DNA of 35,350 bases, taken from assembly GCA_900299185.1 (NCBI GenBank), contig OMIV01000214.1:1-35350 (forward strand), in the 5' to 3' direction. This DNA comes from Planctomycetaceae bacterium. Its GTDB lineage: Bacteria > Planctomycetota > Planctomycetia > Planctomycetales > Planctomycetaceae. Positions 14,838 to 35,350 of this stretch are shown here, one piece after another. Within the stretch, counting starts at the first letter, position 1, and every line of letters starts with the position of its first letter. The notes under the pieces are model-generated. The model ran no database searches and was not told the origin of the DNA. It saw only the letters and a list, made by a program, of their open reading frames with translations. The translations under genes and the position numbers were made by a program.

Positions 14838-14970
14838 AGTGGTTGGTTCTTCGCTGAGTACTCAAATCTTCTGCGGTTCAATTCGGTCGAATCACCGCTG
14901 AGAAGTAGAGAGCGCTGAGACGGACTGAGCAAACTCCTACGGGAAGAGCCCCCATCACTTCTCAAAGTGA

Positions 14971-15050
14971 GTGGCACGCCCAGAGAACTCGAAGGGCGTG
15001 TGCTCACGTCGCTCGACCACGCCCTTCCCGTTGGTCAGAGCGTGCTACCC
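14971..15050 (+). repeat. Nested inverted-repeat element, copy 1
   Basis: An approximately 80-base element. Outer arms are GTGGCACGC near 14971 and GCGTGCTACCC ending at 15050 (imperfect). A perfect 10-bp inner inverted repeat pairs GAAGGGCGTG (14991-15000) with CACGCCCTTC (15018-15027). It is a close relative of the element at 17611-17692: over the 65 bases ending each element I count about six differences. Weaker similarity continues on the right to about 15085, reaching the stop codon of the fusion gene. It resembles REP- or MITE-like non-coding repeats. Confidence 0.85.
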
Positions 15051-15082
15051 CAAACAAAGCGGGAAGGAATTACGGCCCGTTC

Positions 15083-17533
15083 CTAAGTCAGTCGCGCGAA
15101 GCCCGAATGTTTGATGGGGCCTCCGATGCGACTGGCTATGTCTTTGTTGCGGATGGCATCCGAAAGCTCGGCGAAGACTGTGTCGGCAGCTCGCAAGTAG
15201 ACGTCGACGTGCTCGGCCTGATGAGCCAGTGTCGGATAGAAGCCGCCGCCTGCGAGAATGCCATGATCGAGCATTCGCACTGTGAGCAACGTGACGAGAG
15301 CTGCGGACTCGGGATGATCGAAGCTCAGCGAAGTGAGGGCCGGATAGCCTCCGATCTTCAACGGCAGCACGTGGTCCCGCGCGAGCGCTTCGAGGCCAGT
15401 TCGGAACTGCTTGCCGACTTGCTCGACGTGCGCAGGAACGTCGATTCGTTGCATGACATCGAGCGTTGCTAACGCGGCAACAAACCCGACTCCCTCAGTC
15501 CAATAGGTGCTCGAAATGAACGACTCTTGAGCAGCCTGCATGGTCTCGGCGGTTCCAATCACTGCGCCGATGGGATGACCGTTGCCCAGGCCCTTGGCGA
15601 AGACCGCGACATCAGGTTCAACTCCATATGTCAGATGAATTCCACCTCGATGGAAACGCAATCCAGTCGTGACTTCGTCGAAGATCAGCTTGGCTCCGTG
15701 GTCATTGCAGAGCTGTCGAACGTCGTTGAGGAAACCGTTGGTCGGCGGCGTGTTACGTGTCGGCTCCATGATGACGGCTGCGAGTTGCTGGCCGTGATCG
15801 CGACAGATGGACCGCAGCGAATCGATGTTGTTGTACGAGAAGGGAAGGGCCGTGCCAGTGAGGCCGCGAGGAACTCCCAAGGGATTCAGTCCGGGCAGCA
15901 AGTGGCCATCGAGCGCCGAGTTCTGGTCGAGGTTCGCGGCGAGATACCAATCTTGCCAGCCGTGATAACCGCAGAAGGCGACGACGTCTCGTTGCGTCGC
16001 AGCGCGGGCAATACGCGCCGCGATGGCCATCGATTCGCCGCCACAACGGGCGAAGCGGACGTTGTTTGCCCAGGGATGCCAATCGATCAAGCGACGCGCG
16101 AGAGCGACTTCCTCAGGACAATTGAGCGTACTCATCGAGCCCAAAGTCACCCGACGAATGACAGCCGCGTTCACTTTTGGATGAGCATAGCCCAGCAAGC
16201 AACTGCCGACTCCGTTGTGGGTGAAGTCGAGGTACTCGCGACCGTCGAGATCGACGACTTCGCAGCCGCGAGCTTCAGCGAAGTAAGCCGGCCACTGCTC
16301 AGGAGCAAACTGCTCGGGCCGCTTGCTGAGTAGTTGCGTGCCACCCGGAATGATGTGCTTCGCCTCGCGATAAAGAGCTTGGCTGAGTCCAGAGGCCGCG
16401 CGGGCGGGGGAGGGGCGATTGGAATCGGGGCCGCATTGACTAAGCCCCTCACCTCCAGCCCCACTCCTCAGAGGGGTGACGGGTGCATGGCTGCGCGCGG
16501 ACTCAACAAGCCGACGAGCGTTCGAACAAAACAGTCGCTCGATGTCGTTGTCTTTCAAATGAAGCGTGCGGCTAGCCTGTTGCAGCGCGAGCAAAGATTG
16601 CAGCCCAATCTTGGTGGGACTTCCGAGCGTCCATTGGCTGAAGTCGACGGCGTTTTCGTAGAGCCACCAAAAGCCATCTCCGAGACTCATCGCATGGCCG
16701 CGCATGTCAGAGACCGGAAAGTCTGAACCGAACATCAAGCGAGTTGTGCCGAAGGTTCTAAAGATCGCTTCGAAAGCCGGGGCTTCGCAGATGGCCGAGG
16801 TATCGAACCACACATTTCTGAGACCTCGCAGTGCATCGATGCCTGCGACCGTGTGAGCGGCACAGAAGCCTCGGGCCGCGTGAGCCAACACTAGCTTGGC
16901 TTGAGGAAAGCGACGACAGCGATCCGCGATGTAAGATTGATTCCGAGGATCAGCCAAGGCTTTGTCGAGCACCATGTGCAGCATGATGAGCAAGCCGCGC
17001 CGGTTTGCGATCTCCCAAATCCAATCCGGCAAGAACTCGGATGTCTCCGCGCGAAAGGTGTCCTGCATCGACGCCAGCAAGTGGTAAACCTTGAAGCCCA
17101 CCCAACCGTCCCGCACCACTTGCGCCTCGATGTCGGCTGGATCATCCGTCGGTCTGACGAGCATCAAACCCGCTAACTGTGGATGTTGTTGCAGTTCACT
17201 CAGCAAGAAGGCATTGGCCGAAGGCGTGTCGACTGTCTTGGTCGGGAATGGGAAGAAGAGCGTCGAGGTCGCCGTTCGATCGCCGAGCCATGAGTTCTGG
17301 TGTTGGAGATAGATCGGATAGCGAACCTCAGCCGGGCCATGAAACGACTCGGCGGTCGAGCCATCGACGATGTGACGCAAGTCATAGAGATGGGCATGAG
17401 CGTCGAAGCTGCCGGCTGGCATCCAGTCGCGCAGCTTCCGGTCGAAGAGTTCGCGATCAGCTTCGTCCGTGCGATACAGGCTCGTGCCGGTATCGCCGTA
17501 AGAGAAACGCTTGCCGTCAGATGGCTCGGTCAT
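15083..17533 (-). CDS. Amidohydrolase - class III aminotransferase fusion protein
   Basis: 816 residues with two enzyme domains. Residues about 40-345 are an amidohydrolase_2 TIM barrel: metal-site HxH (His46, His48), GFKVY with Lys148, His186 in LHMVLD, His218 in VLAHAARG and Asp271 in FGSDFP. Residues about 383-790 are a class III aminotransferase closest in style to glutamate-1-semialdehyde aminomutase: IIPGGTQ, FCGYHGWQDW, LIFDEVTTG (Asp619) and the PLP lysine Lys647 in FAKGLGNGHPIGA. Both active sites look intact. The linker (about 349-382) is encoded by GC-rich palindromic repeat DNA. ATG 17533 follows GAGG at seven bases. A PLP decarboxylase gene lies upstream on the same strand. The substrate is unknown; a hydrolysis step followed by amino transfer on the same compound is an inference. 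Confidence 0.88.
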   Translation of the reverse strand: MTEPSDGKRFSYGDTGTSLYRTDEADRELFDRKLRDWMPAGSFDAHAHLYDLRHIVDGSTAESFHGPAEVRYPIYLQHQNSWLGDRTATSTLFFPFPTKTVDTPSANAFLLSELQQHPQLAGLMLVRPTDDPADIEAQVVRDGWVGFKVYHLLASMQDTFRAETSEFLPDWIWEIANRRGLLIMLHMVLDKALADPRNQSYIADRCRRFPQAKLVLAHAARGFCAAHTVAGIDALRGLRNVWFDTSAICEAPAFEAIFRTFGTTRLMFGSDFPVSDMRGHAMSLGDGFWWLYENAVDFSQWTLGSPTKIGLQSLLALQQASRTLHLKDNDIERLFCSNARRLVESARSHAPVTPLRSGAGGEGLSQCGPDSNRPSPARAASGLSQALYREAKHIIPGGTQLLSKRPEQFAPEQWPAYFAEARGCEVVDLDGREYLDFTHNGVGSCLLGYAHPKVNAAVIRRVTLGSMSTLNCPEEVALARRLIDWHPWANNVRFARCGGESMAIAARIARAATQRDVVAFCGYHGWQDWYLAANLDQNSALDGHLLPGLNPLGVPRGLTGTALPFSYNNIDSLRSICRDHGQQLAAVIMEPTRNTPPTNGFLNDVRQLCNDHGAKLIFDEVTTGLRFHRGGIHLTYGVEPDVAVFAKGLGNGHPIGAVIGTAETMQAAQESFISSTYWTEGVGFVAALATLDVMQRIDVPAHVEQVGKQFRTGLEALARDHVLPLKIGGYPALTSLSFDHPESAALVTLLTVRMLDHGILAGGGFYPTLAHQAEHVDVYLRAADTVFAELSDAIRNKDIASRIGGPIKHSGFARLT
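16402..16486 (-). repeat. GC-rich palindromic repeat forming the linker of the fusion gene
   Basis: Within the fusion gene the minus strand reads CACCCCTCTGAGGAGTGG, then GGAGGTGAGGGGC, and later CGCCCCTCCCCC. It is an imperfect palindromic, purine/pyrimidine-skewed segment like the dispersed CCCCTCACCCC-type repeats found in many GC-rich bacterial genomes. It translates to a low-complexity linker (PLRSGAGGEGLSQCGPDS) unlike either flanking domain. Confidence 0.6.
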
Positions 17534-17610
17534 CAGGGGCCTCGCAGGTCAGTCTTAATGGCGAGTCTGTTTGAGGTACTTAGATGCGGGCAGTGACTGA
17601 TTCTCGATGT

Positions 17611-17692
17611 GGGTGGCACGCTCTGAGTACTCGAAGTGCGTGTGCTCGCGTAACTCGACCACGCCCTTCCCGTTGGTCAGAGCGTGCCACCC
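17611..17692 (+). repeat. Nested inverted-repeat element, copy 2
   Basis: An 82-base element bounded by a perfect 16-bp inverted repeat, GGGTGGCACGCTCTGA (17611-17626) and TCAGAGCGTGCCACCC (17677-17692). Inside is a second inverted repeat (GAAGTGCGTG with CACGCCCTTC, one mismatch). It lies between the decarboxylase stop and the fusion-gene start, in the same orientation as copy 1. No open frame is inside. Similarity to copy 1 continues on the right to about 17730. Confidence 0.88.
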
Positions 17693-17830
17693 AAAACACA
17701 CCGGGACGTAATCACGGCTCTGCTTCTTAAACAACTTCATTGCTCGCCGCTGCACTCATGTGGAAGAGTGATTGCACCCCAGAGATCAAAGAGCGCCGAG
17801 ACGAACGATGAGCGGATCGGGTGAGTCTCT

Positions 17831-19474
17831 CTATTCGGCTTTGATTCGTTCTCGCGCCTGCCAGATCGACTGAAGGACGGCATCGACATATTGCTCATCA
17901 GAAAACGGACTCATGATGTAGGACTTGAGCGCCACAATCGGCTCGCCGTAGTCGGTCTCGCGATAGCAGTCTGTTTGAGAGATGACGACGCCTCGTCCTT
18001 GTAGTGCTTCAGATTGAATCGCTTGGAAGATGCGGCGGTTGTAGTCGTTGTGGGCTCGCAGTTGGTCGCGATGAGCGGGGTTCTGTTGTTCGATCTGCTT
18101 GATCGAAAATGTGTCAACACCATCGGGATAGACTCGGAAGAGAGTGACCGGACCGAAGTTCTCGCTATTGAGCACTGTCGTCGCGGAATGACCTTCGAGA
18201 TGTTCGGCCAATAAGTCCGACATGCTGACGAGATGTCCGAGTAAGGACCGCAAGCCTTCCTTCCCGAGCAATAACAAGTTGGCGAGTGCCGACATGGGAC
18301 CTCCGCCACCGCGTGATGTTTCGAGCGTGTATTTGCCGGGGTGGTATTGGCCGGACTTGAACAAGTACGGCATCGCGGCGGGATCGCGCGAGATGCGGGC
18401 GAGATCGTCCGAGGCTTTGCACAGAAACATGCTCGACACATAAGGCGTGAAGCCGGTCTTGTGAAAGTCGATGCCGATCGAGTCTGCGTCGGAAAGATGC
18501 CGGATGCGCCGCTGAGTTCCGGCTAAGGCTCTTACCGTGCGGTGCTTAAAGCCGAGTGCATTGGCTGTGAAGTCGTAATCGTTGAAGACGCTCCACGCCC
18601 AACCAATGACCGCGTCGGCGTGCAAGTGCGGGACGTAGTCGAGGTCGAACTCTTCGACGAGTTGATCGCGGATCTCGCGCAGCTTGTGGATGTCGTCGAG
18701 CCCAAAGGCGTCGGTGGTGCCCATTGTCGCCACGATGCACGCGATCTTGCGGCCGTCTCTTAAGAGCTGACGGCACATGCTTTCGAAGAGGCACGTGCGG
18801 ATCTCGTTCTCCGGCGACGTCGGGACAATCTCGACATTGTCTTCGCCAATCCCCAACCAACTCGCGACGGTGCGGCAACCATAATGCGCACGGTCCGAGC
18901 AAACGATGACGGGGGACTCACGGAGGCCCGAACGAGCTGAGCCCGGACAGCACTTCTCCAAACCGACCTTCACTGCATAGAGCAGGGTGCCTGTGCCGCC
19001 GAAGGTAAAGATGCCCTGCGATTCGCGCGGGTCGATCCCCACCAACGACGACACCATCCCCGTGACTTCAACTTCGGCCAAAGCGACTTGTCGCGAAGAC
19101 TCTTCACTAACGAGGTTGGGGTTGTAAATCGATGGCAGCAATCCGCCGATGATGCTGGGAATGGTGGGGGGCGGGATGACGTTGATTTGCGCTCGCGGGT
19201 GGCCCCAAATGAAGCAGCCTGAGAGGTGCTGCACGAGTCGTGATGTGACGTCTTCGAGGGACATGGATTGCTCGGCGATGCGACTCTCGCGAGCGGCATT
19301 GAAGTCGAGCGTGACTTGCTGGCCCAACACGGGTGTGACCGACTTCAGTGCGTCGAGTTGGTCGATCGCTTGCATGATGGCATGACCGAAATAGGCATCG
19401 TGCACGCGGTCCGAAATAGGCTGAGGGAAGCACTGACGAAGTTGTCGAACAATCTCGTAATAGGTGGCAGACAT
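17831..19474 (-). CDS. PLP-dependent group II decarboxylase
   Basis: 547 residues, of the pyridoxal-dependent decarboxylase family that includes glutamate, tyrosine and aromatic amino acid decarboxylases. PLP-site features are FGGTGTLLYA (158-167), the ring-stacking histidine in RAHYGCRTVASWLGIG (His197), GTTDAFGLDDI (252-262), HADAVIGWAW (285-294, aligned with HVDAAWGG) and the Schiff-base Lys339 in IGIDFHKTGFTP. ATG 19474 follows a strong AAAGGAG at eight bases; the frame is open upstream to 19672, but that part overlaps the neighbouring gene and looks non-coding. It has about 60-100 more residues than typical soluble decarboxylases. The substrate is not readable. It is likely co-oriented with, and possibly co-expressed with, the fusion enzyme downstream. 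Confidence 0.9.
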   Translation of the reverse strand: MSATYYEIVRQLRQCFPQPISDRVHDAYFGHAIMQAIDQLDALKSVTPVLGQQVTLDFNAARESRIAEQSMSLEDVTSRLVQHLSGCFIWGHPRAQINVIPPPTIPSIIGGLLPSIYNPNLVSEESSRQVALAEVEVTGMVSSLVGIDPRESQGIFTFGGTGTLLYAVKVGLEKCCPGSARSGLRESPVIVCSDRAHYGCRTVASWLGIGEDNVEIVPTSPENEIRTCLFESMCRQLLRDGRKIACIVATMGTTDAFGLDDIHKLREIRDQLVEEFDLDYVPHLHADAVIGWAWSVFNDYDFTANALGFKHRTVRALAGTQRRIRHLSDADSIGIDFHKTGFTPYVSSMFLCKASDDLARISRDPAAMPYLFKSGQYHPGKYTLETSRGGGGPMSALANLLLLGKEGLRSLLGHLVSMSDLLAEHLEGHSATTVLNSENFGPVTLFRVYPDGVDTFSIKQIEQQNPAHRDQLRAHNDYNRRIFQAIQSEALQGRGVVISQTDCYRETDYGEPIVALKSYIMSPFSDEQYVDAVLQSIWQARERIKAE

Positions 19475-19580
19475 GGGGGCGACTCCTTTCTGGGGCGGCA
19501 CACCATAACGACAGTCTGACGTCAGAGCAGGCCAGTCCTTGAATGAGTTAGTGCCGGGTTGGGCCATCCCAAGAAACGAT

Positions 19581-19630
19581 CGAAGCGTCCGCGAGTGCGC
19601 CAAATGACTGACGCTCTCTCGGACGCTTCG
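19581..19630 (-). terminator. Candidate terminator of the VIT/VWA gene
   Basis: A 15-bp stem with one mismatch (CGAAGCGTCCGCGAG at 19581-19595 against CTCTCGGACGCTTCG at 19616-19630) has a 20-base loop. It lies 25 bases past the VIT/VWA stop. On the minus strand it is followed by ATCGTTTCTT, a weak T tract. It would separate the VIT/VWA transcript from the decarboxylase gene. Confidence 0.5.
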
Positions 19631-19655
19631 GGGGTAATGACGGGGACCGGACAGG

Positions 19656-22013
19656 CTAATCCGCTGGATCAATCTGATAGGTCTTGCCGTCGAGATTCAG
19701 CACGACGGGTTCGTCAAAAGCGAGGTACTTGGCGAGCGTCCCACTGTGCGATGCCGCGAGGTCGAAGTACTCGCGACTGAACTGCTTAAGCCGGATGGCC
19801 TTGGTTTGTTGCTCGTCAGTGACGGTCGAGTCTTGCCACATCTTGTTCTTGCGGAAGAACGTCTTCTGCCCCAATTGGCGAACCGAATCGAGTGACTTCA
19901 CGGCGCCAGATTCATCAACGACTCGAACGCCTTTGAAGACTTCTTTCTTCTCGGTGGCAACTGCTCTGGATCGCTTGTCCGCGTCGGCTGCAGCTTCCCT
20001 CGCTCCACCACTCAGGCCACTGGCTGAAGGTGTAGGAGCTGATACAGGGCCTGAAACGGCACTCGCGTTGTCGGCGGATTGAAGCTGAGCTTTGAATGCT
20101 CGTTGTTCGACGCCCGATCGACCGGCCTCCAGACTCAATGAACGGCGAGTAGATTCAGCGGCTCGATTGACGTTGCTGCGGTCGGCCAAACGCACGTTGT
20201 CATCCGCCAAGAACGAGGTGTAAGGCGTGATGATTCCGTGGCGAATCGATAGCTGCACCAGTTCGTCGACGAGTTCTTGGTTCTGACCACGCAGATCGAG
20301 TTCATCAATGATCTCGCCCACTCGACGAGTGGCCCAAAGCTTCTCGGCGAACCCATTGGATTCACCCATTGAACGTTCCGCCAAGGTAACTGGGAACGAG
20401 AACTTCTGAGGCTGGCCCGCGTGTTGACCACTGATGACAACCTTGGCGAGTCCTCCTTTGCGATAGCGACCGACCAACACGAGTTGCTCGCCAAAGAAGA
20501 GGTCCGAAAGCTGCTTGGGATAGAGCCGATTCATGCGAGCGGCTTCGGATGGCGACGCTGGTTCGTCGAATTCAAAGCTGACCGACAGATCGGTCAGCAT
20601 GGGGTTGCCGATCTTGTTGTAGAGGTTCGAAACGCTGGCCTCGATGTCCTCTTGGGGACGGACATAAACCGACTGGCCGCGGTTGTCTCGGGAGAGGCGA
20701 TCGAGCAGGCGGCTATTGACGTCGTAGCCCACACCAAAGTTGAAGAGCCGTGCGGACACGGTGTTGATCGCTTTCGCGTTGCCCGCGATTCGTTGCTCGT
20801 TGCGTTCGCCGACCGTCGGCAATCCGTCTGTAAGAAATAGAACATACGACGGGACAGCCTTCGTGGTCAGTAGCTTGAGTGAGGTCTGCAACGCTCCGTC
20901 AATGTTAGTGCTGCCGCCGGCATAGAGTCCCTCGGCATAGCCGAGCGCCGCTTTGATCGTCTCGGCGTCAGCTCGTTGCAGTTCAGGGCGGAAGGTCTCA
21001 ACGACTGAGTCGTAGGCCACAATGTTGAACTTGTCTTGCGGTCGCAGTTGATTGATGAGGAACTTCAGCGCTTCGCGGGCTTGCTTGATCTTCTCACCAT
21101 TCATGCTGCCCGAACGATCGAGCACAAAAATCATGCTGCGCGGCATTGGTGCTTGATCGACTCGTTTAAGTTCGGGACTGACGAGCAAGACAAAGTAGCC
21201 GTCTTCGTTGTCGAGCGGCTTATAGCTGATGAGATGCGTTCCGAGTTGGCCCGAGCTGGTGCCGAACAACAAGCGGAAGTCTTCGAGGCGATCAGCGTTG
21301 GTTAACGACAGCTTGCAGTGAGCGTGCTTGTCGTCGGGCCGCTGGAGTTCGATGCCATGCGATGGCGAATAGATCGTGCGGAGCGGGTCATTGGTTTCGA
21401 CGCGGACGTCGACATTGAGTTGCCCGATGGCTCGATTCGAATGCTTACTCAATCCAATGGGCAGGGTCAGATCGACGAGCCCCGTGTCTTTTCTCAAGAG
21501 TTGCGAGTACCGAATTTGAACGGTCCGAGCTGCCTGAGGCGGGACGGGAAAGACGCTGGTCTGATAGAGACCTTGGCCGATGTATTCGAGCAACGCGGGG
21601 TCTCGCCGCGATCGAACAATGGACTCGTAGATCGAACGAGCTTCCTCTTTGCGAAGCAGCTTGCCGGAGAATTCTTGGCCATCGACCAGGAGCGTGAGTT
21701 CGCTGATGGCCGCGTCTGGCGGTAACGGGAAAACGATCTGAGCTTCGAGTGTCTGGCTGCTGAAGTTTTGAAAGACCTGCTCGATCTGCACCTGAGCGAC
21801 TTGCTCGCGCACTGTGGCTCGAAACTCCAGCTTCGAGATGTGATAGACCGACGGCGGTATTGGTCTGATCGGCGGCAGGCGTGTTGGTGGATGGGAAGGA
21901 TCAGGCGGAGTCGGGACGACTATCGAGTTGGTTACAACTACGACTTGGGCCGAAGTCCAACTTGGGCAAAGCCCCAACAGTGCTAATGCAGCGAACCACA
22001 ATCGTCTCGTGAT
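19656..22013 (-). CDS. VIT and von Willebrand factor A domain protein, secreted
   Basis: About 785 residues if translation starts at the ATC at 22013; a GTG 38 codons upstream (22127) is the nearest standard start I can place. The segment TRRLWFAALALLGLCPSWTSAQ is a signal peptide. The order is a Pro-rich linker, a VIT domain (HISKLEFRATVREQVAQVQI to QIRYSQLL), and a VWA domain with an intact MIDAS (DRSGSM, GGSTNID, LTDG). The C-terminal part has FADDNVRLADR-like ITPYTSFLADD and an Ala/Ser-rich linker, ending near YLAFDEPVVLNLDGKTYQIDP. Proteins of this inter-alpha-trypsin-inhibitor type occur widely in planctomycetes and are thought to bind metal-dependent protein partners outside the cytoplasm. 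The function here is not known. Confidence 0.9.
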   Translation of the reverse strand: MTRRLWFAALALLGLCPSWTSAQVVVVTNSIVVPTPPDPSHPPTRLPPIRPIPPSVYHISKLEFRATVREQVAQVQIEQVFQNFSSQTLEAQIVFPLPPDAAISELTLLVDGQEFSGKLLRKEEARSIYESIVRSRRDPALLEYIGQGLYQTSVFPVPPQAARTVQIRYSQLLRKDTGLVDLTLPIGLSKHSNRAIGQLNVDVRVETNDPLRTIYSPSHGIELQRPDDKHAHCKLSLTNADRLEDFRLLFGTSSGQLGTHLISYKPLDNEDGYFVLLVSPELKRVDQAPMPRSMIFVLDRSGSMNGEKIKQAREALKFLINQLRPQDKFNIVAYDSVVETFRPELQRADAETIKAALGYAEGLYAGGSTNIDGALQTSLKLLTTKAVPSYVLFLTDGLPTVGERNEQRIAGNAKAINTVSARLFNFGVGYDVNSRLLDRLSRDNRGQSVYVRPQEDIEASVSNLYNKIGNPMLTDLSVSFEFDEPASPSEAARMNRLYPKQLSDLFFGEQLVLVGRYRKGGLAKVVISGQHAGQPQKFSFPVTLAERSMGESNGFAEKLWATRRVGEIIDELDLRGQNQELVDELVQLSIRHGIITPYTSFLADDNVRLADRSNVNRAAESTRRSLSLEAGRSGVEQRAFKAQLQSADNASAVSGPVSAPTPSASGLSGGAREAAADADKRSRAVATEKKEVFKGVRVVDESGAVKSLDSVRQLGQKTFFRKNKMWQDSTVTDEQQTKAIRLKQFSREYFDLAASHSGTLAKYLAFDEPVVLNLDGKTYQIDPAD

Positions 22014-28192: not shown

Positions 28193-31100
28193 TTGGCCAG
28201 ATCTTCCAAGAAGACCAACCGTTTGAAGAAGTCGGCGTGGAAGCGTCAGCTGCCAACGGTCTCTTTAGCCGCTGAGACCTTCGAGGATCGAGCACTCTTG
28301 TCGGCGTTCACTTGGAATGGGTCGGTGAGCACCGATTGGGAGACCGCCGGGAACTGGACGGTCTCGGGGGCCGCCGATGCTGATGGCATCCCCGACACTG
28401 ACGACGCGGTGACAATTGACTCCGGAACAACCTTCAGCCCGCAGTTGAGCGCTCCGGAAGCGATTGGTTCCCTGAGTGGTTCAATCGGGACGCCGGCCAC
28501 CATCGACCTTCAGTCTTTTACGTTGACGGTCGGAGCATTGAATTCGGACACAGATTACGGAGGCCACATCGTCGGTTCCGGTGGGATCACGAAGGATGGA
28601 TCGGGGACGTTTCGGTTGTCGGGGTCAAATACATATTCCGGCGCGACAACCATCAACTCAGGCATTCTTTCGACGAGCAGTAGCTCTTCGAACCTCGGCG
28701 ATGGATCGGTGACCAATTCGGTCATCTTCAATGGTGGTTTCCTCAGAATGGGCGGCTTCGTTTCGCTGAGCACGCGGCCGTTTGTGTTGCAGGCGGATGC
28801 CACCATTCAGGATCTGGGGACCAACAACGAAATCGCTGGAGTGATCTCCGGCGCGTTTGATCTTACCAAGGCTCACGACGGTCGATTGACTTTGTCTGCA
28901 GTCAACACATTCGGCGGTGTCGGGCACAAGATCACGTTGACCGGCGGCCAAATCATTGTGGCAGCAGACAGTGGTCTGGGCGCGACAGACAACGAGGTTG
29001 TCTTCAATGGCGGAACCACGCTGGTTGCGACGACCTCGTTTGCGACCGCGCGCAGCATCGTGCTGACTCAATCGGGCATACTAGATGCCAAGGATTCGGC
29101 CGTCTTCACCATCGACGGAGTCGTTAGCGGCACTGGCACGGCCTTGGGGATTCAATCCTCGGGGACAGGAGCTGGCACGGTCTTCTTGACGAATGGCAGT
29201 AATTTTTACACAGGAGTGACCAACGTCACGAGCGGTTCGCTCACTGTGACGACCAATGGTGCTCGCGGAGGTACGACCAACGGTCTCACAACAGTTGCCG
29301 GGACCGTCGTTGATTTCCCGAATGTGCTCTACACGTTTGCCGAGCCGATCACGCTTTCGAGCGCCACGCTCAATGTGTCGACAGGTACAAGCAGTCTCGC
29401 CGGCCCCATCAATATCTCCGCAACGTCAACGATCTCTGTTCCGGAAACGAAGCTGACTATCGATGGAGTCATATCCAACAATGCCTTCACCAAGACCGGC
29501 AGTGGCACTTTGGTTTTGACGGCGGTCAATACTTACACCGGCACAACCACCGTCAGCGCGGGCACCCTGTTGGTCGACGGTTCGACGGCGGCTGGCGCAA
29601 GTTTCACCGTCAATTCAGGCGCAACCTTGGGCGGGTCGGGCGCGATTTCGTCTGGTGCGATGGTTTCGATTTCCGGTCGTCTCGCACCAGGCGGATCACC
29701 TGAGTCGCTGAATATCGGTAGCGCCTCATTGGCGACGGGCGCGTTCGTCGACATTGAGATCGGCGGAACGACTCCAGGTACTGGCTATGACCAATTGATT
29801 GCGAGCAACACGGTGATACTGGGCGGATCGACGCTCACTCTGACGGCCATCAACGGATTCGTGCCCTCGGCCGGGCAGAACTACACGATCATCGACAATC
29901 AAGGCGTCTCGGCCATCAACGGCACGTTTTCGGGATTGGCGGAAGGTGCGCTGATCGGCAACTTCCTCGGCTCGGGTAATGCGGCTTACATCACTTACGT
30001 CGGCGGCGACGGCAACGATGTCGTTATCACGACCAATACCGCGCCGACGCTCGATGCATCGCAAAGTCCGGCGCTGACGCGCATCGACACCGACAATCAA
30101 ACGTCGTCGGGCGACACCGTCGCGAGCATCGTTGTTGATGGCTCGATCACCGATCCCGACACTGTGACCGATCCCGAATCAATTGCGGTCACGTCAGTCG
30201 ATAACACGAACGGCAAGTGGCAGTACTCGACCGATAATGGCGGTTCATGGAACGACTTCAGTGCGACAACCGGCTCGAACGTTGATCTCTCGACGGCGTC
30301 GCGTTTGCTGCTGCCGACGGACAGAATTCGCTTCGTCCCCAACCTCACTTATGTCGGCACTGCGACTTTCACGTTTCGAGCATGGGACCAAACAACGGGC
30401 ACGGCAGGCAGCACGGCGAGCACAACGACGAACGGCGGCATGACTGCGTTTAGCTCGGCGTCGGATGGTGCGAGCATCTTCGTCGGATCGATTGAAACGT
30501 CAGTCGCGCTCGACGGTTCTGGCAATCTCGTTGTGACCGACATCAATGGCGGCACGACCGACGACACGCTCACGGTGAAGTCCGACGGCGCGAACATCTA
30601 TGTCTCTGATCCGAATCGTTTGCTCGAAACGTCCGTCGGCTCGATCAGCGGCGACTTCCATACGGTCACGATTCCGCTCGCTTCGATCACAGGCTCGCAG
30701 TTGCAGTTCAACACGCTCGCCGGGAGCGACTCGCTGACCGTCGATTTCTCGCTCGGAAACTTCACGAAGAGCATCGTCTACACCGCCGGCAATCCGACAT
30801 CGGCTCCCGGAGACTCGCTGACGCTGACCGGCGGCAGCACCTTTACGACGGTGACGCATACCTTCAGCAGCGAGAACGACGGCACGGTCGACGTTTCGGG
30901 CAACAGTCAGATTAGTTACACCGGCCTTGAACCTGTCACCGACAATCTCGACGCGACAAACCGAGTCTTCACGTTCACGGGCGGCGCCGAGACCATCACC
31001 GTCACCGATACTGGCGGAGCAGACGGCAAGACGAAGATCGATTCAACGCTCGGCGAGTCCGTCACGTTCACGAATCCGACAGCTTCGCTGACGATCAACG

Positions 31101-34100
31101 CGGGCTCGGGCGATGACACCATCACGATCAGCTCGGTCGACTCAGCATTCACAGCAGCGCTCACCGTCAACGGCGACGCGGGCACCGACACCATCAATAG
31201 CAACGCCACTTTGACGCTCGGTTCGGGCAGTTCGACGGGTGCAGTTTCTCTGACAGCCGAGACGATCGCGGTCACTGCCGCCATCAACACAACGGCGGTG
31301 ACGACGGGCACGACCTCGCTCAGCGGCACGACGATCTCGCTCGGAGCGAATCTCAGCACGGATAGTGCGAGCGTGACGATCGCGGGTTCGACGTCGGTCT
31401 CGCTGACGTCGTCAATCACGATCGACACCGAGTCCGGCAACAACGGCAATGCTGGAGCGGTCTCGTTCGCAGGCACGGTGCAATTGCAGCCCGATGGCAC
31501 GAAAGGCCGCGACCTCACGATCAATACGGCGACGAACTTTGCAGGCGGTACGGGCGGCGCAGTGACGTTGCCGACGATCGGGCTCAATACGACGTATCTC
31601 AACGATGTCAGTATTGATACACGCGCGGCGACGAACGGCGTCATCACCGTCGGCGGAAACATCACGACCGACGATAACGGAGTCGCTTCCGGCGGCACGA
31701 TCACGCTCGCGGGCGACGTGCGACTTTCGGGCTCTCGCACCTTCTCAACCGCTGATGCCGACACGAACGGCGGAGTGATCGACCTCTCGAACGCGACCGT
31801 CAGCGCGACCGTCGCGAACGCGAATCTCACGCTCACAACCGAAAGCACAAAGGCAGGCGGCACGGGCGGAGCGGTGACGCTCAACACCTTCAGCAATGCC
31901 GGCGGGCAGCTCGTCAACAACTTGAGCATCGACACGAATGGCACAACGACAACGGCGGGTGACATCACTCAGAACGGGACCGTGACGCTCGCGGGCTCAG
32001 CGACCTACGACGGGCGCACAATCAGCCTGCCGAATACGCAGTCGGATCTCATCGTCTCCGGCTCGAACACCATCAGCCTCACCGCGACGAAGAACGTCAG
32101 TCTCGGAGCGGGTGCGTCGCTGCAATCGGTCAACGGCAACATCACCGTCAGCGCCAATCAGCAAGCCACTGCGACGACCGGCGACTTCACCGGCATCTTG
32201 CTGACGGCGGCGTCGATCGCAGCGAGCGGCACGGGTTCGATCAGCCTCACGGGTAAAGGCGGCACCGGTGCGAGTGAGAACGACGGCGTCCGCATCACCG
32301 ACGACAACACCGGCGGCATCGGCACGCTCTCAACGCTCTCGACGACGTCCGGCACGATCAGCGTCACCGGCACGACCAACTCGACGACCGCCGGAGATGA
32401 CGGCGTGCATATCGAAGACGCGACGATCAACGCGTCTTCAGCCGGTCCCATCACAATCAACGGCACGGGTGCGAATAGCTCAACCTCAGAGGGCGTTTAT
32501 CTCGCCGGTGCGACGAGCTTCGCAAAGTCCAATGGGGGTGCAATCACCATTACAGGAACAACGAGTGGTGATGACGGTGTCGAGATTTCCAAAGCGGATA
32601 TCACCAATCAAAGCTCAGGCACCATCACCATCTCGGGCACTGGCGGCACGGGAAGCGCGACTGCGGACGGCGTCGTCATCGACGGTTCAGGTCAAACATT
32701 GATCTCTGTCGCTAACGGGAACTTGCAGATCAATGGCACGGGCGGAAAGGACGACGGTATCGACGCCAGCGATGCAATAATTCGTACTACCGGCTCCGGT
32801 AAGTTGTCGCTGATCGGGACTGGTGGAAGTGTCGCGGAAGGCGATGGCATCGTCGTGACGATCACGGGCAACGGCCTCGGCATTTTGTCATCGAGTTCCG
32901 GAGCGATCGTTCTTAACGGGACTGCAACAGCAGGAGACGGCGTCGAATTAGTCGCAGGTGCTTTTCAAGCAATCGGAGCAACCTCAACGGGCACGATTTC
33001 AATTACGGGCGACGGCAATGGTGCGGGTACCGTCGGCGTGCAGATTGACGCGCCGATCTCCGCCAATTCCGGATCCGTCACGATCACCAGTCAAGACGAT
33101 GTGACCTTCGCGGCAACGGGCGACGTCACGACCGTCGGCGGAGCAGTGACCGTCATTGCAACCAATAGCGGCGGCAAGATCACTCAAGCAGACGGCGCGT
33201 TGATCGACGCGGGCAACAAGCAAATCTCGCTCACCGCCGACAGCACGATCACGCTCGGCGGCTTGCTTACGACATTCAGCAACACGCTCACCAACGCGAT
33301 CGCAGTCACCTCGAATAACGGAGCGATCGTCGACGGCGGCGACTCGCACGTTGATGCCGTCGCGGCGGCGGGAATCATCGCACTCAGCGCGCCGAGCGGC
33401 ATCGGCACCGCGAACGCCATCGAGACAACCGGAACACGTCTCTCGGCCTCCAGTAACAACAATGACATCCGAGTGACTGAGACGGACGGGATCGTCGCGC
33501 TCTTCTTGAGTGCCGGTACGGGCGATGTCTTTCTCACTGCCGGGGGCGCGATCACCGATACCGACGGCAGCACTGACATCACGGCAGACGATGCCTCGAT
33601 CACGATCAGCACCGCCGGAGCGGCGCTCGGCACGAGTTCGAATGCAGTCGACGTGCTACTGTCAACGCTCGTCACATCAACCAATGCCGCCGACCAATAT
33701 CTCAGCACCTCAACGACGGTGACGATCGGCAACGGCGATCTCAGCAGCGGCGCCGCGAACACCGTGCATCTCGTGAGCGGCGGATGGTTCACGACGTCAA
33801 CCGGTGGCGACATCAACGGCAAGGCTGAAGTGCAAGGCGCGGCTGTGCTCGCCGGTAACGGCACTGTGACCGGCTCGGTCTCGACTGTCAGTGGTGCGAT
33901 CATTGATCCGGGAATCTCGACGGCGGGCGTGCTCACAACCGGACCAATCGACTTCGCGAGCGGCGTCACGTTCAACGTCGAGATCGACGGCAACTCTCCC
34001 GGCATTGGCGCCGGCTTCCATGATCAGCTCGTGACGACGGGCAACGTCACCATCAACAGCGCGACGCTGACCCTCACTTCGCTCGGCTACACACCGCAAG

Positions 34101-35329
34101 ACGGCGACTCGTACAAGATCATCAACAACGGCGGAGCGGGCGCGGTCAGTGGCACCTTCAGTGGTTATCCGCAGGGGCAGATCACTCCGAACTTCCTCGG
34201 CTCGCCGTACTTCATGCGGATCGACTACGCCGGGGGCGACGGTAACGACGTCGTGCTCGAAATCTTCTCGGCGGACACTTCGGTCGACATCGACGGCAGC
34301 GGCAATCTCGTCATCACCGACATCAACACGACGACCAACGACGCGCTCACGATCAGCCTCAACGCAGCCGGAACGCACTACATCATCACCGACCCGACGC
34401 GCATCCTCACAACGTCATCAGCGGGACTGACGGGCGACGGCACGAACACCATCACCGTGCCCGTTGCCAGTGTGACCGGCGTCATTCAATTCGTGACACT
34501 CGCAGGCAATGACTCGATCACCGTCGATTACACGAACGGCTCTTTCCCCGACGACATGACGATCGATGGCGGCACGCAGACGACGTCCGACTCACTGACT
34601 CTCCAAAACGCGACTTTCACGAGCATCACACATTCGGCAACGAGCACCGGCGCCGGCACGATCGCGTTCGCCGGTCCCGCGAACGGCGGCATCACGTACT
34701 CGGCGCTGGAAGCGATCACGGACTCGCTCACCGTCAGCGATCGTACTTTCAATTACAGCAACACAGCGCAGACGATCTCGATGACCGACGCCGCAGCCGC
34801 GAACGGTCGCACGAACATCACTTCAACTGCCGGAACGCCGATCGACTTCACGAACCCGAGCCTCAGCTTCTCGCTCAACGGCGGCACGTCGGATGACACG
34901 ATCAGCGTGAGCGCGGTCGACAGCGGCTTTGTCGCGAGCATCAGCATCGACGGCGGCGCGGGCACCGACAGCATCACGAGCAGTGCCACTCTGACTCTCG
35001 GCACCGGCAACACCGGCACGGTCTCGATGTCGGCAGAGACGGTCTCGATGTCGGCAGAGACGATCACGATCGACGGCGCGATCGACACGACTGCGGGCTC
35101 GACCGAATCGATCTCGTTGACGGGCGGCACGATCACGATCAATGCCGGACTGACGACCAATATTGGCGATGTCGTCGTCTCGGCGACGGGAGCAATCAGC
35201 TTCACCGCAACGGGCAACATCACGACGACGACCGGCAATGTCGACGTCACTTCAACCGGCGGGACGATCACTCAAACCGACGGTTCGCTGATCGACGCCG
35301 GTAGCGGCGAAATCACCCTCACCGCCGAC
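28193..35329 (+). CDS. Giant autotransporter-type beta-helix LEPR-XLL protein, truncated at right edge
   Basis: At least 2379 residues; the genuine frame runs into adapter sequence, so the C-terminus is missing. The start is TTG 28193, the only start codon after the upstream stop, with GAGG three bases before it. The N-terminus is basic (NRLKKSAWKRQLP) and carries FEDRALLS (30-37), the LEPR-XLL sorting motif. Autotransporter-associated beta-strand repeats follow (GSGTFRLSGSNTYSGATT; GSGTLVLTAVNTYTGTTT), then a GGDGNDVVITTNTAPTL junction into a cadherin-like segment. From about residue 769 a Gly/Ser/Thr-rich beta-helix dominates. It contains eight DGV/DGI units (32279-32950) and a second copy, 1260 residues later, of the LDGSGNLVVTDIN module. 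A large cell-surface or released adhesin or matrix protein is likely. Confidence 0.9.
32279..32950 (+). repeat. Eight-fold DGV/DGI repeat inside the giant gene
   Basis: Eight successive units carry the signature D-G-V/I at spacings of 39, 30, 28, 31, 29, 30 and 31 residues (NDGVRI, DDGVHI, SEGVYL, DDGVEI, ADGVVI, DDGIDA, GDGIVV, GDGVEL). Each has a Gly-Thr strand before it (for example GTITISGTG). The spacing fits one or two turns of a right-handed beta-helix per unit. The repeats are similar in protein but quite different in DNA. Confidence 0.75.
35018..35059 (+). repeat. Exact 21-bp tandem duplication
   Basis: A 21-base unit (35018-35038) beginning ACGGTCTCGATGTCGG is repeated exactly at 35039-35059. 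It duplicates VSMSAET in frame within the giant gene. A third, diverged unit (ETITI) follows. Confidence 0.9.
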
Positions 35330-35350
35330 CTGTCTCTTATACACATCTGA
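35330..35350. other. Nextera adapter at right contig end (artefact)
   Basis: The last 21 bases begin with CTGTCTCTTATACACATCT, the reverse complement of the transposase mosaic end, and continue GA as in the read-1 adapter. It adds the false residues LSLIHI and a false stop to the giant protein. Confidence 0.97.

Follow-up and report, generated by a model that had tools for sequence, protein, structure and literature searches.

In a 35,350-nucleotide stretch of contig OMIV01000214.1 from a Planctomycetaceae bacterium (the whole stretch is called the window here), a single gene joins an amidohydrolase part (AH; Amidohydro_2, PF04909) to a class III aminotransferase part (AT; Aminotran_3, PF00202). 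The host genome comprises 7.87 Mb in 383 contigs, and the nearest named relatives of the window carry the labels Planctomycetota/Planctomycetaceae. We found that this fusion is a real, conserved protein that recurs as one open reading frame (ORF) in several phyla. It is apparently an undescribed enzyme made of two known superfamilies, since no paper on an amidohydrolase-class III aminotransferase architecture was found in the open-access PMC literature (titles and abstract starts of the entries listed), in keeping with the initial annotation, made from the letters alone, which knew of no described enzyme with this domain order. The protein is probably bifunctional, judging from its conserved residues, and we give about an even chance to the reading that it is a conserved enzyme for two linked steps of one catabolic route, in which AH would open a lactone, lactam or N-acyl bond and AT would interconvert an amine and a carbonyl.

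A conserved amidohydrolase-aminotransferase fusion

The gene is a single uninterrupted frame with an ATG start that encodes 816 amino acids (aa), which bears out the single polypeptide of the initial annotation. Both parts passed the Pfam gathering score, PF04909 at aa 106-342 with 67.6 bits (cut-off 26.4) and PF00202 at aa 416-775 with 158.9 bits (cut-off 30.5). The features of the gene are given below, with pyridoxal phosphate abbreviated to PLP and glutamate-1-semialdehyde 2,1-aminomutase to GSAM.

15083..17533, minus strand: fused gene AH-linker-AT, 816 aa, based on the ORF, on Pfam and on the same one-ORF arrangement at 32 of 80 related loci from named genomes
16499..17533, minus strand: N-terminal PF04909 amidohydrolase part, aa 1-345, based on Pfam, AlphaFold2 and fold matches
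17390..17398, minus strand: HxH motif H46-A-H48, predicted metal ligands
17090..17092, minus strand: K148, lysine in GFKVYH
16976..16978, minus strand: H186, predicted metal ligand
16880..16882, minus strand: H218, predicted metal ligand
16721..16723, minus strand: D271, predicted catalytic or metal-binding Asp
16388..16498, minus strand: linker, aa 346-382
15086..16387, minus strand: class III aminotransferase part (PF00202) at the C-terminus, aa 383-816, HemL/GSAM-like
15677..15679, minus strand: D619, presumed PLP-pyridine Asp
15593..15595, minus strand: K647, presumed Schiff-base Lys

The active-site motifs of PF04909 comprise HxH, two further His and an Asp. The residues of this set that the initial annotation had named (H46xH48, H186, H218 and D271), together with D619 and K647 of the aminotransferase, were all at the expected places. 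These seven residues and K148 do not vary across 32 aligned fused proteins, which include the window protein and some that are just 37% identical to it, and the six AH residues are also invariant in a 29-row AH alignment. From family knowledge, we take D619 to be the Asp that contacts the PLP pyridine and K647 to be the Schiff-base Lys. Structure modelling, which had been proposed as a check, predicts both enzyme folds in the full protein: AlphaFold2 gave a mean predicted local distance difference test (pLDDT) score of 90.9 for AH alone and 84.4 for the full-length protein, where residues 1-16, 351-380 and 813-816 fall below 50 and a weaker stretch lies at about 521-560 of AT.

To place the fusion among its relatives, one genome per species was scanned, and the best 80 of 479 loci, from named genomes, were examined. 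Both domains lie in one ORF at 32 of these loci, isolate genomes among them, and in overlapping frames at one (L102, Gordonibacillus); AH is separate on the same locus as AT at three (L073, L110 and L114), and AT alone was found at the remaining 44. By title, the fused-ORF records represent seven phyla (Planctomycetota, Verrucomicrobiota, Bacteroidota, Bacillota with Paenibacillus, Armatimonadota, Lentisphaerota and Acidobacteriota), although they are mostly metagenome-assembled genomes with several strains and are not all independent. Strain records with the single fused ORF include Cyclobacterium, Lunatimonas, Pleomorphovibrio and Paenibacillus, and the nearest homologue of the window protein, with 66-67% identity over nearly the whole length, is also fused. 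Since the same architecture is found as one ORF in 32 of the 80 related named loci, isolates included, chance frame fusion or chimeric assembly does not explain the gene.

Two of these loci have unusual arrangements of their own. In the Gordonibacillus kamchatkensis record (L102 5920-8245), two overlapping frames take the place of the single fused one, either through a sequencing error or because the gene is a pseudogene. At L110 4903-7308, AT is fused behind a D-2-hydroxyacid dehydrogenase, and a PhyH gene and then a separate AH gene lie downstream.

Coupling and phylogeny of the two parts

Among 392 Planctomycetota genomes, 41 have AT at E<=1e-60 and 24 have AH at E<=1e-40, a cut-off picked after the list was seen, and all 24 lie within the 41. 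The two parts are fused in 17 of the 24 genomes, encoded by adjacent genes in four (G216, G333, G369 and G373) and found at separate places in three (G133, G152 and G353). The adjacent pairs are ordered AT then AH, opposite to the fusion, and therefore the fusion did not come from stop loss between genes in that order. At E<=1e-15, AH was found in 35 genomes, and 9 of the 11 added genomes lack AT at E<=1e-60. Because just two of the added genomes (G274 and G344) have AT, the weaker AH relatives are mostly uncoupled; this, like the late choice of the stricter cut-off, weakens the case for tight coupling.

In the AH tree, which left out near-duplicates, doublets and three far AH rows, a branch (99/96) separates the AH parts of 34 fused proteins and of the frame-split L102 from 13 other AH rows. 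Among those 13 is a further fusion from genome G274 (L035/L142; L142 7828-10278), in which the same AT lineage is joined to a divergent AH lineage. In a quick tree without bootstrap, its AT is placed within the fused ATs (SH-aLRT 96), and its AH, about 28% identical, keeps the active-site set of HxH, K, H, H and D. This AH lies outside the fused AH branch (p 0.00026 in the approximately unbiased test against one fused AH clade with L102 inside, and 0.00034 without the long row L179 in a quick tree), a placement that depends on a long branch. On these trees, the locus may have arisen by a second fusion or by exchange of its AH part. In the AT tree, which left out near-duplicate loci, the fused label needs 8 changes, so that repeated fusion and a single gain followed by several losses or exchanges are equally possible. 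Stand-alone ATs of Hydrogenedentota nest among the fused ones, which tells against an unbroken union of the two parts and suggests that AH was probably lost or exchanged more than once.

Taken together, the invariant residues, the AH branch supported at 99/96 and the presence of AT in all 24 strong-AH genomes support a conserved two-part enzyme. That an assembly or frameshift artefact joined two neighbouring genes is hardly credible: four genomes do carry two adjacent genes (L031-L034), but these pairs run AT then AH, so a lost stop could not yield the AH-AT order, and the closest homologues elsewhere as well as the four named isolate genera show the same single ORF. The initial annotation had noted that its claim would fail if close homologues were always two genes joined here by such an error; instead, the closest ones are fused too. 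It is also very unlikely that either half has lost its activity and now acts as a scaffold or regulatory domain, given that the predicted metal and PLP residues are invariant across the 32 fused proteins, distant ones included, and that the second AH lineage joined to AT has retained its active-site residues.

Likely chemistry and gene neighbourhood

AT falls in the HemL/GSAM-like branch of class III. It shares fold and PLP residues with HemL/GSAM and with GSAM-like aminotransferases (FumI, D-phenylglycine aminotransferase, PctV and GenB4), which are its best sequence and structure matches; it differs from them in its fusion to a hydrolase and is 23-29% identical to them in the structure matches. 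AT is under the cut-off for all NCBIfam models inspected (best 25 of 69 matched), and scored 226.4 of 486 bits against PRK06209. An identity as the HemL/GSAM equivalog was rejected (TIGR00713, 199.5 of 527.3 bits). Stand-alone class III aminotransferases in pseudaminic and other nonulosonic-acid clusters form a related lineage with about 40-53% identity to the fused AT; they lack AH and lie beside NeuB, PseB/PseC and cytidylyltransferase genes. In three Pelagibacteraceae records (L097 1-2484, L105 5275-7299 and L109 5236-7287), an AT relative follows a cytidylyltransferase-like part in one fused protein (phmmer scores of 161-197 bits against a cytidylyltransferase probe), within nonulosonic-acid-type clusters, and a longer plasmid gene (L185 7281-9314) perhaps has the same arrangement.

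The PDB contains nothing close to AH in sequence (best E 0.0076, or 5.1e-07 with a profile), and the profile matches of AH include gamma-resorcylate and salicylate decarboxylases. When folds were ranked by VIA-align Z, COG3618 amidohydrolases (4dlf/4do7, so titled, and 4mup) came out on top with Z 22.1 (246 aligned residues, root-mean-square deviation 3.0, 14-18% identity). We take these structures to be of lactonase or lactone-isomerase type. The L-fucono-lactonase model of NCBIfam matched 13 of the 29 AH rows weakly, with E no better than 2.5e-05, while no NCBIfam decarboxylase model matched any of the 29 rows at E<=0.01. On these fold and model matches, lactonase-type chemistry is favoured for AH. 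Several results count against this choice: decarboxylases reach Z 21.3 and LigI 20.6, pyrone-dicarboxylate hydrolases are also close, Foldseek places decarboxylases first (2,3- and 2,6-dihydroxybenzoate decarboxylases), and the window protein scores 19.2 of 400 bits for the L-fucono-1,5-lactonase equivalog, far below the cut-off.

Neighbouring genes were counted within 6 kb of 43 fused or split AH-AT loci and of 43 of 44 stand-alone-AT loci (L088, on a 3.2-kb contig, was dropped). The AH-AT loci have PhyH (12), SSF symporter (10), HpcH/HpaI aldolase (9), a propeller protein termed c4 (9), short-chain dehydrogenase/reductase (SDR, 8), Gfo/Idh (5) and BNR_2 (5) genes, and more rarely aldo-keto reductase (AKR, 4), 3HCDH-like dehydrogenase (4), M81 peptidase (2), DegT (1) and PLP decarboxylase (1, the window). 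The stand-alone-AT loci have NeuB (15), cytidylyltransferase (15), AKR (14), Gfo/Idh (12), SDR (12) and DegT/PseC (10), followed by HpcH (5), dihydrodipicolinate synthase (5), PseB (4), SSF (3), BNR_2 (3), PhyH (2) and c4 (0). At least one of PhyH, SSF, HpcH, c4 and BNR_2 is present at 26 of the AH-AT loci vs 11 of the stand-alone-AT loci, and NeuB, cytidylyltransferase and PseB are found at none of the 43 AH-AT loci. In Fisher tests, which treat as independent loci that are not, the enrichment at AH-AT loci is conspicuous for PhyH (12 v 2, p 0.007) and c4 (9 v 0, p 0.002) and borderline for SSF (10 v 3, p 0.07), with none for HpcH (9 v 5, p 0.38). The c4 protein, which has no Pfam match and no sequence match in the PDB, is read as a secreted, glycosidase-like propeller.

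Individual loci show the same kinds of neighbours. In Lunatimonas, genes for a class III aminotransferase, a 3HCDH-like protein, PhyH, SSF, BNR_2 and the fusion form a tight row, and the split-gene locus L140 (G216) has c4, HpcH, Gfo/Idh, PhyH, a HEAT-repeat protein, SDR, AT and AH in a row. In Paenibacillus, a NagA gene (above cut-off) adjoins the fusion and is followed by PhyH and AKR. A stand-alone AT relative on a Pseudosulfitobacter plasmid lies between pseB/pseC and pseG/pseI in a pseudaminic-acid cluster. These neighbours of the fusion suggest catabolism of carbohydrate-derived compounds, and we read the AT lineage as acting on sugar-derived compounds: many stand-alone members would serve the synthesis of surface sugars, and those joined to AH a catabolism linked to uptake. 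Weighing against a catabolic role are the HpcH and SSF results and the higher frequency of SDR, AKR and Gfo/Idh at the stand-alone-AT loci; the window itself has none of the PhyH, SSF, HpcH, c4 and BNR_2-type neighbours, and none of them is universal across the 43 AH-AT loci. The probes were also taken from the same loci, which are partly close relatives and in many cases cut by contig ends, and the presence of stand-alone relatives in nonulosonic-acid biosynthesis clusters means that catabolism is not the sole option.

The gene upstream of the fusion in the window is the following.

17831-19672, minus strand (the strand of the fusion): PLP decarboxylase, about 300 bases from the fused gene

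The idea in the initial annotation that this decarboxylase could act in the same route was not supported, and the partnership was rejected on gene context. Its shared strand and short distance would fit such a role, but a homologue lies near only one of the 43 AH-AT loci (the window itself), none was found in the 18 kb around the gene of the closest relative, and a dispersed repeat separates the two genes; we regard joint action as highly improbable. A decarboxylase activity in the fusion itself, with AH as a metal-dependent enzyme of the gamma-resorcylate/ACMSD/5-carboxyvanillate type whose product is then transaminated, would be consistent with the Foldseek ranking, with VIA-align Z scores that trail those of the COG3618 structures by about 1 to 3 and with the profile matches to gamma-resorcylate and salicylate decarboxylases. 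The NCBIfam results for the 29 AH rows run the other way, and the neighbours read as carbohydrate-related, not aromatic, which makes this version fairly unlikely. The earlier view of a probably bifunctional enzyme with two conserved active sites was supported. The proposal that it hydrolyses a cyclic or decarboxylatable substrate and then transaminates the product was supported in part: by Z the AH fold is closest to COG3618, but with decarboxylases and LigI nearly tied it does not separate hydrolysis from decarboxylation. A role in biosynthesis, with the modification of a nucleotide- or ulosonic-type sugar destined for a surface glycan as seems to be the case for the stand-alone AT relatives, might be expected from the NeuB, cytidylyltransferase and DegT/PseC genes at stand-alone loci and from the Pseudosulfitobacter plasmid; however, NeuB, cytidylyltransferase and PseB are missing from the AH-AT loci, DegT occurs at one, and many of these loci have symporter and secreted-propeller genes instead, so that we consider this role rather unlikely.

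In the proposed two-step catabolic enzyme, AH would be a metal-dependent hydrolase of the Amidohydro_2 fold, most like the COG3618 structures of sugar-lactone hydrolase type, and would open a lactone or lactam (or an N-acyl bond) of a carbohydrate-derived compound. AT would turn the adjoining amine into a carbonyl, or the reverse, and the flexible linker may join the two parts so that the linked steps share an intermediate. We would tentatively go further, at somewhat less than an even chance, and propose an undescribed bifunctional family, spread over several phyla, that would break down an amino-sugar or sugar-acid compound by an equally undescribed route, with the fusion serving to hand a reactive aldehyde or imine from one site to the other; tight coupling of this kind could account for one AT lineage being joined to two AH lineages and for the parts staying neighbours elsewhere.

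Phosphonoacetaldehyde hydrolase belongs to a hydrolase family unrelated to AH, and the aminotransferase to which it can be fused is of another class than AT. That fusion, with 2-aminoethylphosphonate:pyruvate aminotransferase and an unstable aldehyde between the steps, is still the closest described logic that we met; it is listed among frequent metabolic fusions as a case with an unstable intermediate (PMC4921024), and the word amidohydrolase is absent from the main text of that paper. In Pseudomonas jessenii, caprolactamase and an omega-aminotransferase carry out lactam hydrolysis and then omega-transamination (PMC6061476), but as separate proteins and with an ATP-dependent, 5-oxoprolinase-like hydrolase. 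Gene fusion is a strong sign of a shared pathway, and here it ties two families of uncertain substrate together in many phyla. The fusion occurs in culturable strains (Cyclobacterium, Lunatimonas and Paenibacillus) that are open to gene deletion. Solving the route would help to assign two uncharacterised subfamilies and the PhyH, propeller and symporter genes often found alongside, and would correct automatic labels of glutamate-1-semialdehyde aminomutase.

Dispersed repeats in and around the gene

The linker of the window protein is disordered in the model and is the longest among the 32 aligned fused proteins. It is lengthened by an in-frame palindromic repeat, to which its extra length corresponds, and two copies of another repeat flank the gene.

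16406..16483, minus strand: in-frame dispersed palindromic repeat in the linker, core 16445-16469
14959..15076, no strand assigned: 118-nt dispersed repeat just downstream of the fused gene, direct copy of 17601-17718 (86%)
17601..17718, no strand assigned: 118-nt dispersed repeat just upstream of the fused gene, direct copy of 14959-15076 (86%)

At up to 3 mismatches, the core of the palindrome matches 42 sites in the genome, the window copy among them, and the reversed control matches none. In 20 regions with 21 other copies, which were not a random draw, the copy lies inside a stop-to-stop frame of more than 300 aa in 10 of 21 cases. Pfam matched 7 of these 10 frames: three UvrA-like proteins, an FtsK/SpoIIIE ATPase, a DUF6798 protein, an nSTAND/WD40 protein and a Ser/Thr kinase whose kinase match itself contains the copy. 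In-frame palindromes besides the window copy lie at L187, L188, L192, L194, L196, L205 and L206. Protein-coding palindromes exist in Rickettsia, and the in-frame palindromic repeat of this genome resembles them. Repetitive extragenic palindromic elements inside genes have also been reported (PMC3733652). The flanking 118-nt repeat is palindrome-like, and a 171-base query taken from it gave 46 matches in the genome, some of which are close together elsewhere too. Further along the window, a very long repetitive ORF (28193-35350) runs for at least 2385 aa to the window end with many degenerate internal repeats, and may encode a surface protein.

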